A stretch of 64,000 bases of DNA. Source: Actinomadura rudentiformis. GTDB lineage: Bacteria > Actinomycetota > Actinomycetes > Streptosporangiales > Streptosporangiaceae. The translations under genes and the position numbers were made by a program. The notes below the pieces were generated by a model. It saw nothing but the letters and a program-made list of their open reading frames with translations, made no database searches and was not told where the DNA came from. Positions 18,648-25,952 of this stretch are shown in pieces (positions within the stretch are counted from its first letter, which is position 1; every line of letters begins with the position of its first letter). Location: positions 1-64,000 of the forward strand of contig NZ_WBMT01000023.1 in assembly GCF_008923185.1 (NCBI RefSeq), given 5' to 3'.

Positions 18648-19823
<1,176 letters not shown>

Positions 19824-19876
19824 TCATGAGACGCGTTCCACTGCGCCGGGCCCGGAATGATCATTAAGGTGAGGCT

Positions 19877-20416
19877 GTGCGCCCCGTCACGTCCGTTCTG
19901 ATCGCCACGGCCACCGCTGCCGCCGTCGCCGCCACCGCGGCCGTCCTCGCCCGGCGTCGGCTGGTGATCGTGCATGTGACCGGGCCGAGCATGCTGCCCA
20001 CGTACCGGGCCGGCGACCGGGTGCTCATCCGCCGGGTGTCCGCGCGGAGCCTCCGGCGTGGCCAGGTGGTGGTCTTCGAGGGGCCACGGGAGGGCCGGTG
20101 GCGCGCCGGTCCGCTGCCCGGGCTGGACGCCGCCGCATGGATGATCAAGCGGGTCACCGCGCTGCCCGGCGATCCGGTGCCCGATGACGTCGCCCCCGCC
20201 GTCGCGGACGCGATGGTCCCGGAGGGGCGGCTGGTAGTCATCGGGGACGGCGTGTTCAGCGCCGACTCGCGCAAGTGGGGGTACGTCCCGGCCGATCGCG
20301 TGCTGGGCGTGGTCGTGCGCGGACTCACGTCCGGCCGGGCACGGGTCGAACACGAGTCCGCTCAGCCCGGCTGGACGCCCGAGGGGGCCGGCTGGGTACC
20401 GGTGGACGACTCGTAA
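19877..20416 (+). CDS. S26 family (type I) signal peptidase
   Basis: A 179-residue S26 peptidase. It has an N-terminal membrane anchor (residues 5-25), the catalytic Ser38 in TGPSMLPTYRAGDRVL, the box C strand RGQVVVFEGP, and the catalytic Lys91 in MIKRVTALPGDPV, followed by VIGDGVFSADSRKWGYVPADRVLGVV, which contains the GDN/SxDSRxxG-like box E. It is slightly shorter than housekeeping LepB. GTG at 19877 follows an AAGGTGAGG site. It converges on, and overlaps by 55 bp, the ABC exporter gene, beyond which lies a small precursor-like peptide. I infer that this is a dedicated peptidase for that peptide rather than the general one. Confidence 0.88.
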   Translation: MRPVTSVLIATATAAAVAATAAVLARRRLVIVHVTGPSMLPTYRAGDRVLIRRVSARSLRRGQVVVFEGPREGRWRAGPLPGLDAAAWMIKRVTALPGDPVPDDVAPAVADAMVPEGRLVVIGDGVFSADSRKWGYVPADRVLGVVVRGLTSGRARVEHESAQPGWTPEGAGWVPVDDS

Positions 20417-22221
20417 CCGCTGGCCTGCAGGGAGAACAGCCGGGCGTACTCGCCGTCCCGCGCCATGAGCTCCTCGTGCGAGCCCCGCTCGGTGATCTGC
20501 CCGTCGGAGAGCACGACGATCAGATCGGCCTCCCGCACGGCGCCGAGCCGGTGCGAGATCAGCACGCTGGTGCGGCCCGCGCGGTGGGTGCGCAGCCCCA
20601 TGTGGATGGCGTGCTCGGCCTCGGCGTCCAGACCCGAGCTCGGCTCGTCCAGGATGAGCAGGTCCGACCGGTCGCGCATGAGCGCACGGGCCAGCGCGAG
20701 CCGCTGCCACTGCCCGCCCGACAACATCACGCCCGCGTCCGCGTCGTTGTCGCCGAAGAAGATCCGGCTGAGCAGCGTGTCGTAGCCGCGAGGGAGCGCG
20801 GCGAGGGCGTCGTGGATGCCGGCGCGGCGGGCGGCGTCCTCCAGCACCGCCCGTTCGCCGCCGGTCGCCAGGTCGCCGAGCATGATGTTCTCGGCGGCCG
20901 TCAGGTCGTAGGACATGTAGTCCTGGAAGACCGCGCCGATCCGGCGGCGCAGCTCGTCCGGGTCGGCCTCGCGCAGGTCCACGCCGTCCCAGCGGATCGA
21001 ACCGCGCACCGGGTCGTACAGGCGGCACAGCAGCTTGACCAGCGTGCTCTTGCCCGCTCCGTTGAGGCCCACCAGCGCGACCGACCGGCCGCAGGGGATG
21101 AACAGGTCGACCCCGCGCAACACCCACGGGTGGCTCTCGTCGTAGCGGAACCACACATCGCGCAGCTCGATGCCTTGGCGCAGCGCGGGCAGGGACACCG
21201 GCTCTGCGGGCACGGGCAGCAGGGGCTCGGCACGCATGACCTTCAGGTAGCGGCCGAACATCAGCAGCGCGTTGTGCGCGTCGGCCCACTGTCCGACGAT
21301 CGTGTTGAGCGACGCCTGCACCCCGGCGACGGCGGCGATGAAGACCGAGACGTCGCCGATGCTCAACGCGCCATCGGCCGCCGCGAGGACGGCCCACAGC
21401 AGCCCGCCGCCCGCGATCAGTGCGCCGAGCAGCGAGAGCAGGCCCTGGCTTCGCAGGGTCCGGCGCTCGATGTCCTCCTCGGCGGCGTTGATGGTACGCA
21501 GCTCGGTGAGCATGCGCTCGCGCAGGTGGCCACCCAGGCCGAACAGCCGCACCTCTTTGGCGGCCTCGGGACTGCTGAGCAGGGCGCTGAAGAAGATCTG
21601 CCGCCGCGTGTTGGTACTGACGCCCCACATCATGCTGGCGCGCCGCCTGCTCAGCACGAGCTGGGCGCGGGCCGAGGGGAGGGCGGCGAGCAGGATGACG
21701 ACGATCATGATGGGGCTGATCACGACGAGGGTGCCGACGAAGCCGGCCAGCGTGATCGTGCCCTGGCCGATCGCGAGGGAGCCGCGGACGATGCGGTCCG
21801 GCGCGTCCTGGCCCGCCTCCTGCGCCAGCCTGAGGTCGTCGTGGAAGGCGGGGTTCTCGAAGCGGCCGAGGCCCGGGTCGGCGTTCACCCGCTCGTACAG
21901 GCGTCCGGAGATGAGCACGCGCAGCGATCGGTGCAGCCGGCCCTGCATGTAGTCCGAGACGTACGGCAGGGCGATGAGGACGAGGCCCGCGGTGGCCAGC
22001 GCGACCGCGGCGGGAACCAGATCGGCGGCGGTCGTGCCCTTGCCGATCCCGTCCAGCACGACCTTGGTCAGCCAGGCCGTGACCACCGGAGCCAGGCCCA
22101 TCAGCACCGCCGCGGAGACCGAGAAGGCCGTCGCTCCCGGCTGCGCCTGCCAGCTCAGCGCGGCCGCGGACCGCGCGCGCTCCCAGAGCGTGCTGCCGTC
22201 GTCCCCCTCCTGCTCTTTCAT
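20362..22221 (-). CDS. ABC exporter (TM domain fused to ATPase), candidate peptide exporter
   Basis: A 619-residue half-transporter. Residues 30-330 hold about six TM helices. The nucleotide-binding domain has Walker A GLNGAGKST (385-393), Q-loop VFQDYM, an unusual acidic insert DNDADAG just before the signature LSGGQ (500-504), Walker B LLILDEP (521-527) and the H-loop in LISHRLG. There is no N-terminal C39 peptidase domain, so any leader removal must be done by another enzyme. The start at 22221 (MKEQEGDDG) has GGGAGAG about 9 nt upstream. The gene lies 118 bp downstream of, and co-directional with, a 53-residue precursor-like gene, with a hairpin between them. Confidence 0.88.
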   Translation of the reverse strand: MKEQEGDDGSTLWERARSAAALSWQAQPGATAFSVSAAVLMGLAPVVTAWLTKVVLDGIGKGTTAADLVPAAVALATAGLVLIALPYVSDYMQGRLHRSLRVLISGRLYERVNADPGLGRFENPAFHDDLRLAQEAGQDAPDRIVRGSLAIGQGTITLAGFVGTLVVISPIMIVVILLAALPSARAQLVLSRRRASMMWGVSTNTRRQIFFSALLSSPEAAKEVRLFGLGGHLRERMLTELRTINAAEEDIERRTLRSQGLLSLLGALIAGGGLLWAVLAAADGALSIGDVSVFIAAVAGVQASLNTIVGQWADAHNALLMFGRYLKVMRAEPLLPVPAEPVSLPALRQGIELRDVWFRYDESHPWVLRGVDLFIPCGRSVALVGLNGAGKSTLVKLLCRLYDPVRGSIRWDGVDLREADPDELRRRIGAVFQDYMSYDLTAAENIMLGDLATGGERAVLEDAARRAGIHDALAALPRGYDTLLSRIFFGDNDADAGVMLSGGQWQRLALARALMRDRSDLLILDEPSSGLDAEAEHAIHMGLRTHRAGRTSVLISHRLGAVREADLIVVLSDGQITERGSHEELMARDGEYARLFSLQASGYESSTGTQPAPSGVQPG

Positions 22222-22267
22222 GGGCTTGGCTCTCCCACTCGCGTTCAGCAGACCGGTCGGTAAAGCG

Positions 22268-22305
22268 GAACGGCATCCGCCCGGGCTTGATGACGGATGC
22301 CGTTC
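22268..22305 (-). terminator. Hairpin between precursor and exporter genes (attenuator-like)
   Basis: A perfect 12-bp stem, GAACGGCATCCG (22268-22279) pairing with CGGATGCCGTTC (22294-22305), with a 14-nt loop. It sits in the 118-bp gap between the peptide stop and the exporter start. There is no U-tract. A partial terminator or stabilising 3' hairpin here would give much more precursor than exporter mRNA, as in many peptide biosynthesis operons. Confidence 0.65.
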
Positions 22306-22339
22306 GCCGAAGGGCTGGGTCAGCCGGACAAAACGGTGA

Positions 22340-22501
22340 TTACCAGAGTCGCCTGCAGTAGGTCGTGCCGCCCATGATGCAGCACTCGTACACGCCGCCT
22401 CCACGGTATTCGCGCCAGCAGCCGGGGTCCGCGGACGCCTTGGTGCTGGGGGCGAGCCTGTCCAGCAGGCGGTCGCCGAGTTCGCTGAGGGAACGGATCA
22501 T
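22340..22501 (-). CDS. 53-residue candidate secreted peptide precursor
   Basis: A small gene with an excellent GGAGGAGA site 5-6 nt before the ATG at 22501. The first 24 residues (MIRSLSELGDRLLDRLAPST then KASA) form an amphipathic, non-hydrophobic leader ending in an Ala-x-Ala signal-peptidase-like site. The remaining 29 residues begin DPGCWREYRGGG and end TTYCRRLW. They carry four cysteines (28, 40, 41, 49), five glycines and several aromatics, like a cyclised or disulfide-linked core. An ABC exporter lacking a peptidase domain and an S26 peptidase are adjacent. I infer a bacteriocin- or signal-like peptide exported by the ABC protein. I recognise no lanthionine synthetase, radical-SAM or lasso enzyme nearby, so modification beyond disulfides is not supported. 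Confidence 0.7.
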   Translation of the reverse strand: MIRSLSELGDRLLDRLAPSTKASADPGCWREYRGGGVYECCIMGGTTYCRRLW

Positions 22502-22570
22502 GGTGTCTCCTCCGTCCAGTGGAGCTCCGGGGCCGGTGCTCCTTGGCGACTGGACGCTATCCGGCTTAAC

Positions 22571-22594
22571 GATCTTGAAGACATGTTCAAGATC
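22571..22594 (-). promoter_or_regulatory. 24-bp dyad operator upstream of the peptide precursor
   Basis: A perfect inverted repeat with 9-bp arms, GATCTTGAA (22571-22579) and TTCAAGATC (22586-22594), separated by gacatg. It lies 70-93 bp upstream of the precursor ATG, in an AT-richer patch where a promoter is expected. No regulator gene for it is obvious in the immediate cluster, so the binding protein may be encoded elsewhere. Confidence 0.65.
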
Positions 22595-22652
22595 CACATC
22601 TCGGAGGAGGTTTTTTGATCATCTCTTGTGTGTTTGTGACCGGCTTCCTGGC

Positions 22653-23138: not shown

Positions 23139-25952
23139 GTGAACATGGGCGGCGATGTCACCCGGCTGGAGGGACTCCTCAGCCTTTTCCAACGGCTGAG
23201 GGAACGGCCGACGAGCCGGGCCGGTGATCGGCTGCGACCGCTCCTGCTCACCATCGGGACGCCGCACGAGACCAGGCAGGTCGCCCATTTCTTCGTCGAG
23301 GAGTGCATGGCGGACGGCGGCCCGTACAGCCACATCACCGCCGACGGCCAGTCCTCGTTCACCGATCTCGCCTTGCTCCTGCGGCACGTCAGCCGCGACC
23401 TCTCGGCGCACCGGCCCCGCTTCGAGCCCGCGTTGCGCTTCCCGTTGCTGAGCATGGCGCTGTGGCTGCTGGAACTGCGGCGGATGCGCCTTCAGCAGGA
23501 GCAGGCGGGTGAGAACGAGCAGGCGCCGAGATTCTCCTCCAACGCGCAGCGGCAGGCTTGGCAGCTGGCCGGCGACCTGCGGGCCGCCGAGGAGGACGCG
23601 CACCGCCGCACCCTGCTGGGCCGCGGCATCCGCAGGCGCCGCCAGATCGTCGTGCCCGCCCAACGGCCGGGCGAACGGGGGCGGCTCGCTTCGGCACTGG
23701 TCTATCTGGAGCAGGTGGCGCCCATCGGGGTGGCGGTGGTGGCGCTGCTCAGCGCCGGTACCGCGGCCACGCTGAACCTAGCCACGGCCATGCTGGCGGC
23801 CGCGGTCGGCATCGTCTTCATCGCCGGCCAGATCACCGCGCGGACACGAGACTGGGCGGGACGGCGCCGCTATCGCTGGTTCACGGCCTCACGGCAGACG
23901 TACCTGCGCGGCAACCGTTCGTCGGACTTCCTCGGGCTGGCCCTGGACGTCTTCTTCCGGGACGAGCCCGATCCCGGCACCCCGCTGGACGACGAGCTCG
24001 AACGGCTGCTGGTCGCCGCGTTCCTCCAGGACCTGCGGCATGGCTACCGGCGCAGTATCTGGCGGGCCAACTGGGCGCGCGTGCGCTATCCGGTCGTGGT
24101 CATCGACCTCTTCCCGGCCGGCCATCCGAGCCGGGACCAGACCCGGCGGTTCGTCGAGCGGGTCGAGGAACTGCGCCGGCACGAGGAGCGTTTCGATCCG
24201 CTCGTCGTCGTGTTCCCGCTCGCCTCGGCGGACGAGGCCGCCCGGCTCGCCGGCTCGATACGGGTGCCGCTCGCCCAGGCCGCCACGGTGGATCTGGGCA
24301 TGGTGCGCGAGTACGAGGAAGGCAACCCGTTCTGGAACGAGTACCTCGCCGAGCAGCGGCGGGTGGCGGTGCTCGGCACGCGGCGCGCGTTCCAGGTGGA
24401 TCTCGGGGCGGGCGACGGCTCGTCCACCGAGCCGATCCACCGGGGGCGGCGGCGGCCGTGGGTGGCGCATCCAGCGATGCCGTGGATCGCGATGGGCGCG
24501 ATCCTCGTCGCCTCGGTCACGGTGATCACGTTGCAGACGGTGCGCTACTGCTCGCCGGTCTCGGTCTGGCACGCGGACAACGGGGAATGCATCGGCATCA
24601 CCGATGGCTCGCACATCTACGCCAAGCGGCTGGCAGGAGTGGAGAAGCGCATCCACAGGCTCAACAAGGACGCGGTGTCCTCGGGCAAGCCGTACGTCAC
24701 GATCGTCTACCTGGGGCCGATGACGACCGACCCGCAGGACAGGAGCCCCCAGGCCGACCTGATGGCCGGCGTGCACGGCGAGCTGGTCGGCCTGTCGATC
24801 GCACAGGAGAAGCACAACGAGGCCAACGGGCAGCCGCGGCTGCGCATCCTGCTGGCCAACTCGGGCTCGCGTTTCCGGTACGCGAAGCAGGTCGCCGATC
24901 ACATCCGGAAGCGGGCGGGCGAGGACCCGCGGATCGTGGCGGTGATCGGGTTCGGCCAGAGCAGGCGGCAGACGGACGAGGCCATCGATGTGCTCGGCAA
25001 GTCGGCGCTGCCGATGATCGGGACCACGAACACCTACGACCTGACAGCGCGCCGCAAGACCAGCTTCTCGCCGTACTACTTCCGCCTGGCGCCCTCCAAC
25101 TGGCGACTGGCCAGGCACGCCGCGTACTGGAGCCGGAACGGGCAACTCGACGGTCTCCAGGCGTCCAGCGCGGACGTCTTCTACGACGCCTCCAGGGACG
25201 ATCGGTACAGCCAGAATCTGGCCCGCGACTTCGCCGACGCGTTCAAGCCGGGCAAGGTCCGGATCTTCGCGTACTCGGACCCGAGCCAGGTGCCGGGCAA
25301 GGTCGAGGAGGCGTGTGCGGCCCCGGCGCAGCTCTTCTACTACGCGGGCCGGTCGGACGAGTTCCGCTCGTTCATCAACAAGGTCGCCAACACCTCGTGC
25401 GGCGGCCCCCTGGTCGTGCTGGGCGGGGACGAGGTCACCAAGTACGTGAGCGACAACGGAGCCGAGCTCGGCAGGACGGACACGCTGCGGCTCTACTACA
25501 CGCCGCTGGCGGCCAAGGAGGCATGGGACCGCCGCTGGGTGGGCGGCCGGCCGCTGCAGACGTTCTATACCGAGTTCGAGCCGGTGGTCGACTCGCTGGT
25601 GGGCAGGACCGCCCCGGCGAACGTGCGGCCCTCCCGCACCCACGCGGCCATCGGTTACGACGCCGCCCGGACGATCATCAATGTGGCGGAACGGATCTTC
25701 GGAGAGCAGGCCCGGACGCTGCCCACGGCCGCGGCGATCCTGTCGGAGCTGACCGAACCGGACCAGCGCGCGTTCCCGCAGGGGGCGAGCGGGTTGCTGC
25801 GGTTCGGCCCGCGCACGACCGGGCACGCGGTCGAACAGAAACCAGTGGTGCTCGCCAAGGTGGAGAAGAACGGCGCCACCACCGTCCTCCAGGTGTGCGG
25901 ACACCTCGTCGACAGCGGTCAGCAGGGAGCTTCCTGCCCGCCCAACCCCTAG
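23139..25952 (+). CDS. Membrane-spanning receptor-like protein with periplasmic-binding-protein ectodomain
   Basis: A 937-residue protein with two halves. Residues 1-185 are soluble and basic (start LRPLLLTIGTPHETRQVAHFF). A hydrophobic hairpin follows (about 195-231), then a second cytoplasmic region (232-445) containing YPVVVIDLFPAG. A further TM helix spans 448-466. The outer half (475-937) begins CSPVSVWHADNGECIGITDG and reads as a type 1 periplasmic-binding fold of branched-chain amino acid receptor type: VTIVYLGPM, LRILLANSGS, VAVIGFGQSRRQTDEAIDVLG, LPMIGTTNTYDLT, AHAAIGYDAARTII-like region. I see no convincing Walker A. Start: GTG 23139 has GGAGG 5 nt upstream; the ATG two codons on is the alternative. 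Possibly a ligand sensor. Confidence 0.72.
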   Translation: MNMGGDVTRLEGLLSLFQRLRERPTSRAGDRLRPLLLTIGTPHETRQVAHFFVEECMADGGPYSHITADGQSSFTDLALLLRHVSRDLSAHRPRFEPALRFPLLSMALWLLELRRMRLQQEQAGENEQAPRFSSNAQRQAWQLAGDLRAAEEDAHRRTLLGRGIRRRRQIVVPAQRPGERGRLASALVYLEQVAPIGVAVVALLSAGTAATLNLATAMLAAAVGIVFIAGQITARTRDWAGRRRYRWFTASRQTYLRGNRSSDFLGLALDVFFRDEPDPGTPLDDELERLLVAAFLQDLRHGYRRSIWRANWARVRYPVVVIDLFPAGHPSRDQTRRFVERVEELRRHEERFDPLVVVFPLASADEAARLAGSIRVPLAQAATVDLGMVREYEEGNPFWNEYLAEQRRVAVLGTRRAFQVDLGAGDGSSTEPIHRGRRRPWVAHPAMPWIAMGAILVASVTVITLQTVRYCSPVSVWHADNGECIGITDGSHIYAKRLAGVEKRIHRLNKDAVSSGKPYVTIVYLGPMTTDPQDRSPQADLMAGVHGELVGLSIAQEKHNEANGQPRLRILLANSGSRFRYAKQVADHIRKRAGEDPRIVAVIGFGQSRRQTDEAIDVLGKSALPMIGTTNTYDLTARRKTSFSPYYFRLAPSNWRLARHAAYWSRNGQLDGLQASSADVFYDASRDDRYSQNLARDFADAFKPGKVRIFAYSDPSQVPGKVEEACAAPAQLFYYAGRSDEFRSFINKVANTSCGGPLVVLGGDEVTKYVSDNGAELGRTDTLRLYYTPLAAKEAWDRRWVGGRPLQTFYTEFEPVVDSLVGRTAPANVRPSRTHAAIGYDAARTIINVAERIFGEQARTLPTAAAILSELTEPDQRAFPQGASGLLRFGPRTTGHAVEQKPVVLAKVEKNGATTVLQVCGHLVDSGQQGASCPPNP

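Follow-up and report, generated by a model that had tools for sequence, protein, structure and literature searches.

Described systems and the cassette of the window

Class II bacteriocins with C39-type exporters carry a leader peptide, leave the cell through a dedicated ABC (ATP-binding cassette) exporter and often bear disulfides in the final product. In the maturation of the nickel superoxide dismutase SodN, a dedicated short S26 protease (TIGR02754) removes a leader that is not of the Sec type, and no exporter is known for that system. Here we describe a compact cassette of three genes, coding for a small cysteine-rich precursor peptide, an ABC exporter and an S26 peptidase, in 64,000 nucleotides of Actinomadura rudentiformis (contig NZ_WBMT01000023.1, positions 1 to 64,000), a stretch that we call the window. 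We think it quite probable that this cassette makes and secretes a small disulfide-linked peptide, most likely for antagonism between bacteria; the evidence for the cassette and for its reading is computational throughout.

The precursor gene (22340..22501, minus strand; stop codon 22340-22342) codes for 53 amino acids, comprising a leader (residues 1-24, MIRSLSELGDRLLDRLAPSTKASA) and a predicted core (residues 25-53, DPGCWREYRGGGVYECCIMGGTTYCRRLW) with four cysteines. A ribosome binding site, GGAGGAG (22507..22513, minus strand), read directly from the sequence, lies 5 nt ahead of its ATG. The exporter (20362..22221, minus strand), an ABCB/MsbA-type half-transporter of 619 amino acids, follows 118 nt after the precursor in the same direction, and by sequence it comes closest, of the solved structures, to ABCB-type and MsbA-like exporters. 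Convergent to it is the gene for an S26 signal peptidase I-like membrane peptidase of 179 amino acids (19877..20416, plus strand), which overlaps the 3' end of the exporter gene by 55 bp (20362-20416). A preliminary description of this DNA had proposed these three open reading frames, and all of them are present at the coordinates given there. Its account of the parts also held: the precursor has the ribosome binding site, the leader ending in KASA and a 29-residue core with four cysteines; the exporter has ABC_tran as its top Pfam match and no C39 family among its matches; and Ser38 (in GPSM) and Lys91 of the S26 enzyme lie in conserved columns.

Compared with the class II bacteriocin systems and their C39 exporters (TIGR01193), the cassette shares a leader and a dedicated ABC exporter, but the window exporter has no C39 match (145.9 bits against TIGR01193, for a cut-off of 523.85) and the leader ends in KASA, not in a double glycine. 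The S26 enzyme exceeds the cut-off for signal peptidase I (TIGR02227, 69.3 bits against 47) with its Ser/Lys dyad in place, and matches PF10502 with 70.5 bits, split into two segments (42.9 and 26.4 bits); the long S26 copies of the genus give a single full-length PF10502 match of about 150 bits. Assignment to the nickel superoxide dismutase maturation protease (TIGR02754) was rejected, the score of 34.5 bits being below the cut-off of 63.25, and unlike the SodN system the cassette has an exporter. Many relatives of the cassette resemble methylamine dehydrogenase maturation in that MauE (PF07291) and a CxxC redoxin stand beside a small Cys-rich protein predicted to be exported. They differ from it in that no dehydrogenase family recurs and in that the substrate would be a short leader-bearing peptide, and the window locus lacks both genes.

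Among the matches listed in our literature search, which left most subscription literature outside its coverage, the decRiPPter study (2020) is the sole paper that ties MauE to such peptides. The accessible parts of it report three candidate families of RiPPs (ribosomally synthesized and post-translationally modified peptides) with mauE, one also with mauD, in Streptomyces; their precursors have at least eight cysteines, modification of the precursor is proposed, and a role of MauE in disulfides is cited (PMC7794033). These clusters, with Streptomyces mauE, filters for transporter, peptidase and regulator, and a Cys-rich predicted precursor, are of the same general kind as ours, so the locus type, which the preliminary description had called uncharacterised, is not wholly unreported. 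One source strain there, going by the same parts of the paper, is S. viridosporus T7A, and one of our loci (L057) comes from S. viridosporus NRRL 2414, but its precursor has six cysteines and not at least eight, and it is therefore not necessarily one of the decRiPPter clusters (PMC7794033). As far as the available text goes, the leader motif, cysteine parity and members outside Streptomyces are not named there, and the main text has neither "signal peptidase" nor "S26" (one "s26" occurs in the wider text) (PMC7794033). The window locus differs from the mauE families in having no MauE. A second comparison is TMcin, a gene-encoded peptide that, in the part of the report available, resembles the cassette in leader removal and in a dedicated disulfide enzyme (DsbA-like TmcD), but was studied in a staphylococcus, has a transmembrane-helix precursor and has its leader cut by a site-2-type metalloprotease (PMC13252029). 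As far as the searched literature goes, what is added here is the signature of the leader, the S26 partner that is almost always present, the parity of the cysteines, the spread over several actinomycete families and the stripped form seen in the window.

With a leader and a core of ribosomal origin, between which cleavage is predicted, the precursor has the general form of a RiPP precursor. Disulfides are the only modification suggested, and whether they qualify as RiPP modification is a matter of definition. The hydrophobic h-region of a Sec signal peptide is absent, as had been proposed: the best mean hydropathy over 10 residues is only 0.17 for the window precursor (maximum 1.73 among 75 distinct precursors of the family described below), Sec status being judged by hydropathy and without a signal-peptide predictor. 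The window leader is amphipathic, strongly so, with a moment of 0.72 that 0.34% of shuffles reach. An AlphaFold model built on ten sequences (mean pLDDT, the predicted local distance difference test, 68.4) has a helix at residues 3-23, of low confidence, and three strands inside residues 28-51. The predicted core would have a monoisotopic neutral mass of about 3382.4 with two disulfides and of 3386.5 in reduced form.

A cassette family across actinomycetes

No Pfam or NCBIfam family was assigned to the precursor, and a direct protein search with it, a method that requires shared exact words, found one relative, 92% identical. The family was therefore reached through the exporter. Weaker peptide matches (E above about 0.01) were judged mostly chance, and of those that were followed L116 and L132 are without any cassette gene. 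Scanning genomes with the exporter yielded 66 loci, of which 58 actinobacterial ones (L031-L088) were tallied and the other eight served as controls. The preliminary description had made its proposal depend on conservation of the small reading frame beside homologues of the ABC and S26 genes, and this is what we find: a precursor is present at 47 of the 58 loci (35 by a fixed pattern and 12 by eye from a looser list), and an S26 gene lies within 6 kb of the exporter, in both orientations, at 54. A redoxin is found near the exporter at 52 loci and MauE at 36. None of these three companions occurs at nine control loci, of which eight are distant ABC loci and the ninth is a further ABC locus in the A. 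rudentiformis genome (L089-L096 and L115). The same check on 44 further loci (45 examined, one of them, L199, without exporter) gave a precursor at 31, S26 at 38, redoxin at 42 and MauE at 27. Almost all of these loci belong to the genus, and they overlap in part with the first set, three precursors (L196, L232, L234) being identical to earlier ones (L053, L069, L077) and L237 being seemingly the same locus as L078.

The pattern of leader, AxA and cysteines matches 59 times in the 0.33 Mb of strand 5' of cassette exporters, six times in 2.35 Mb elsewhere, always with one or more further cassette genes next to it, and three times in 2.68 Mb of reversed sequence [the null covered the window and L031-L138]. 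The clustering of the pattern 5' of the exporters exceeds chance. A strict AxA closes the leader in 73 of 75 distinct precursors, and P-x(3-6)-AxA is present in 64. The pattern was built from sequences already seen and required [AGSV]xA and at least three cysteines, and the likeness of the leaders and the AxA are therefore partly built in. This bias was checked with the reversed-sequence null and with 15 reading frames (13 distinct) picked by eye without the [AGSV]xA demand, all of which have AxA. Between core clusters the mean identity is 0.40 for leaders and 0.23 for cores (19% for cores without their cysteines), a contrast that is partly built in because the leaders helped to find the set. 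The net charge of the cores has a median of +1 and ranges from -3 to +6.

Clustering of the called genes of at least 80 amino acids at the 58 loci gives five families that occur in more than three loci: the exporter, MauE, the redoxin, S26 and a large regulator family (28 of 58 loci), two members of which carry BTAD and STAND-type domains. Among 74 members of the S26 family the catalytic Ser is present in 92% and the Lys in 93%. The window locus belongs to this family by its exporter, which falls inside a starred clade of 19 rows of cassette exporters in a quick tree, by the AxA leader and the even number of cysteines, and by the linked S26 gene with Ser and Lys.

In the exporter tree the cassettes spread over several actinomycete families. 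The exporter occurs in 37 of 65 genomes of the genus, in up to five copies, and the A. rudentiformis genome has five. A sparse sample of the phylum, in which three candidates were scored per genome, has it in 2 of 396 genomes including A. rudentiformis, and gives only a rough idea of prevalence outside the genus. In the RefSeq plasmid records of S. clavuligerus (pSCL4) and S. atratus the order is precursor(s), MauE, redoxin, ABC and S26. The redoxins are annotated there as hypothetical, match a redoxin hidden Markov model (HMM) and have a CAPC motif, and small "hypothetical proteins" can be read as precursors with six cysteines each. The pSCL4 cassette (L241:4219-8444) is complete, with two tandem six-cysteine precursors, and its host is an organism amenable to laboratory work. 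A natural series of core diversity is seen in Rhizohabitans arisaemae (L062:2194-8080), where seven different precursors lie around one exporter, S26 and MauE. The A. rudentiformis genome itself holds a complete cassette (L107:6422-10164; precursor, MauE, redoxin, ABC, S26) and four further ones (L108, L109, L110 and L112) that are partial by the HMMs used.

Cysteine parity, the redox module and the proposed route

The core has an even number of cysteines in 74 of the 75 distinct precursors, distributed as 4 (17 precursors), 5 (1), 6 (28), 8 (25), 10 (1) and 12 (3), and each of the 33 core clusters separated at under 40% identity is even. The further loci gave 35 candidates, 33 of them with an even number (29 of the 31 left after dropping precursors at least 90% alike to those of the first set), and with both sets pooled 42 of 44 clusters are even. 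Chance reading frames of the same form, taken from reversed sequence, are even in 33% of cases [the null comprises 623 pairs of start and reading frame, which are mutually dependent]. The strongest sign that all cysteines are paired is that the classes of 7, 9 and 11 are empty among the 75 precursors, a gap that chance does not yield. Parity thus points to cores whose cysteines are fully paired in disulfides. The preliminary description had suggested that the product may be only disulfide-linked, with no modification enzyme nearby; the even numbers support the disulfides, but most relatives do carry a redox module (redoxin at 52 and MauE at 36 of the 58 loci).

In that module the CxC of MauE is invariant (49 of 49) and the CxxC of the redoxin is present in 71 of 72. 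Neither protein was found by HMM in the 64-kb window, which thus lacks a usual, not universal, trait of the family, and both are also absent from four other cassettes (L117, L123, L125 and L201). In the quick tree the window exporter, the L117/L125 pair and L123 each adjoin cassettes that have both MauE and redoxin, and these positions suggest three or more probable losses of the redox module. MauE is encoded elsewhere in the four short-form genomes searched, in A. rudentiformis inside the complete cassette L107, and a fifth short-form genome (G489) has a MauE cassette at L219. It is plausible that oxidation is supplied in trans by MauE/redoxin pairs elsewhere in the genome; for the window locus, which has no oxidation genes of its own, this way of forming disulfides is a guess.

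The route that we propose begins with the amphipathic non-Sec leader, a helix of L-G-D-R-L-L type followed by P-x(n)-A-x-A. The dedicated ABC exporter would recognise this leader and carry the peptide over the membrane, and on the outer face the dedicated membrane-bound S26 enzyme would cut after Ala24 (KASA|DPGC). Outside, the 29-residue core would then have its four cysteines oxidised to two disulfides, in this genome probably by MauE/redoxin pairs encoded elsewhere, and the released peptide would most likely serve in antagonism between bacteria. Gene content, linkage, the recurrence of leader and AxA, cysteine parity, catalytic residues and the boundaries of the island are shown by the analysis. 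We infer export and its direction, cleavage, oxidation, the activity and the trans supply, and also the order and sidedness of the steps, the latter because S26, MauE and ABC proteins generally act so. Antagonism is our guess at the activity, favoured by the variable cores, the multiple precursors per locus, the patchy occurrence and the linked regulators.

Several observations weigh against this reading. No precursor was found at 11 of the 58 loci, some of which are contig ends or fragments; S26 is absent from four; and a short-form locus (L125, genome G018) has precursor and exporter with no S26 inside the 16 kb examined. The window locus, as noted, has no oxidation genes. Measured against shuffles at the 5% level, only 47 of the 75 leaders count as amphipathic, and the modelled core has no match in the PDB at E 0.001 or better. 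Chance reading frames with at least four cysteines are even in 72% of cases (204 of 285), a level reached because chance reading frames mostly carry three or four cysteines. Three precursor candidates have odd counts: one with five core cysteines (L119:7995-9580, same genus), at a locus with exporter fragments only, whose count is consistent with decay of its cassette; a five-cysteine second precursor adjoining a six-cysteine one (L212); and a three-cysteine reading frame located away from the cassette (L210). Finally, no immunity gene recurs among the genes of at least 80 amino acids at the 58 loci, a size limit below which one would be missed; either antagonism is thereby weakened, or the exporter itself protects.

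The missing immunity gene also counts in favour of the most probable of the alternatives, in which the same cassette yields a signal, a developmental factor or a cell-surface factor instead of an antagonist. This is somewhat unlikely in our judgement. It would fit an exporter that is frequent in the genus but patchily spread (37 of 65 genomes, with five copies at most) and the regulator family at 28 of the 58 loci, with BTAD and STAND-type domains in two members. The cores, however, are much more variable than the leaders (0.23 against 0.40, partly by construction), one locus (L062) has seven different precursors, and no receptor-like gene recurs among the genes of at least 80 amino acids at the 58 loci.

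That the peptide is a RiPP with an additional modification made by enzymes encoded elsewhere in the genome is improbable. The decRiPPter study, in its accessible parts, classed MauE clusters as candidate RiPPs and proposed modification of the precursor (PMC7794033), but our 58 loci show no recurrent family of modifying enzymes among their genes of at least 80 amino acids, and disulfides alone account for the parity of the cysteines. It is likewise quite improbable that the S26 gene is a bystander belonging with serC, the precursor being cut by a housekeeping signal peptidase or left uncut. The window S26 gene does lie on the opposite strand and adjoins serC, long and presumably housekeeping S26 enzymes are present in 11 of 11 genomes searched, and L125 is without a nearby S26. 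The bystander explanation was rejected on the finding that none of 13 same-genus genomes has S26 beside serC and that loci L001-L106 hold no serC match, and the linkage of S26 to the exporter at 54 of 58 loci, in either orientation, also speaks against it. A metal binder or small cytoplasmic redox protein, with the exporter moving another substrate, would suit a Cys-rich peptide with redox proteins among its relatives' neighbours, but is very improbable, since a recurring leader with a varying core is the opposite of what a metal site would lead one to expect and the even cysteine counts span 4 to 12, with spacing that varies.

Returning to the secreted, disulfide-linked antagonist, a wider view is that the cassettes form a large and as yet uncharacterised class of actinomycete miniproteins, exported by ABC proteins and not by Sec or Tat, matured by a dedicated S26 enzyme and oxidised outside by MauE and redoxin, with the window as a stripped form borrowing from its sister cassettes and the hypervariable cores as a bacterial counterpart of the defensin repertoire. 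We hold this view tentatively, as a little closer to doubtful than to probable. If the cassettes work as proposed, they are a widespread origin of peptides rich in disulfides, which genome mining would tend to overlook where it looks for modification enzymes or C39 exporters. Two questions would also become testable: by what means an S26 enzyme cuts, after ABC export, a substrate that has no hydrophobic segment, and what role MauE-type proteins have beyond methylamine metabolism.

The island beside serC

The three genes and their intergenic DNA make up an island of about 2.9 kb (19776..22652, no strand assigned) between serC and the gene of a 122-aa membrane protein. All 14 genomes of the genus that were searched, A. 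rudentiformis included, have serC, and in all 13 others the island genes are missing together beside serC: neither an S26 nor an exporter match was found there, and the precursor pattern has zero matches across the 13 serC stretches. This joint absence leads us to regard the three genes as one unit. The 13 genomes show the customary genes after serC, with citA and pdxH in 13 of 13, the membrane protein gene 14 to 104 bp after serC in 11, and the gene of a 935-aa protein in the neighbourhood in seven. In the quick tree the window exporter groups with exporters of Streptosporangiaceae (SH-aLRT, the Shimodaira-Hasegawa-like approximate likelihood ratio test, 93; not starred) and not with the most similar cassette of its own genus, which hints that the island was gained from outside the genus.

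Two repeats may be control elements. Upstream of the precursor start lies an operator-like inverted repeat, GATCTTGAA-N6-TTCAAGATC (22571..22594, no strand assigned), with perfect 9-bp arms and a 6-bp spacer, which has one match in the window and zero in 100 shuffles. It is possibly an operator, and a check of 15 other loci gave no copy of it ahead of their precursors. A perfect 12-bp inverted repeat with a 14-nt loop (22268..22305, minus strand), between precursor and exporter, would form a stable RNA hairpin (folding z-score -2.95 for the 124 nt around it) and is possibly an attenuator or a processing site. The gene of the 935-aa protein lies at 23145-25952, between serC and citA. Its product has no Pfam family above cut-off, its C-terminal half resembles by eye a substrate-binding protein, and in one genome (G045) the gene is doubled.

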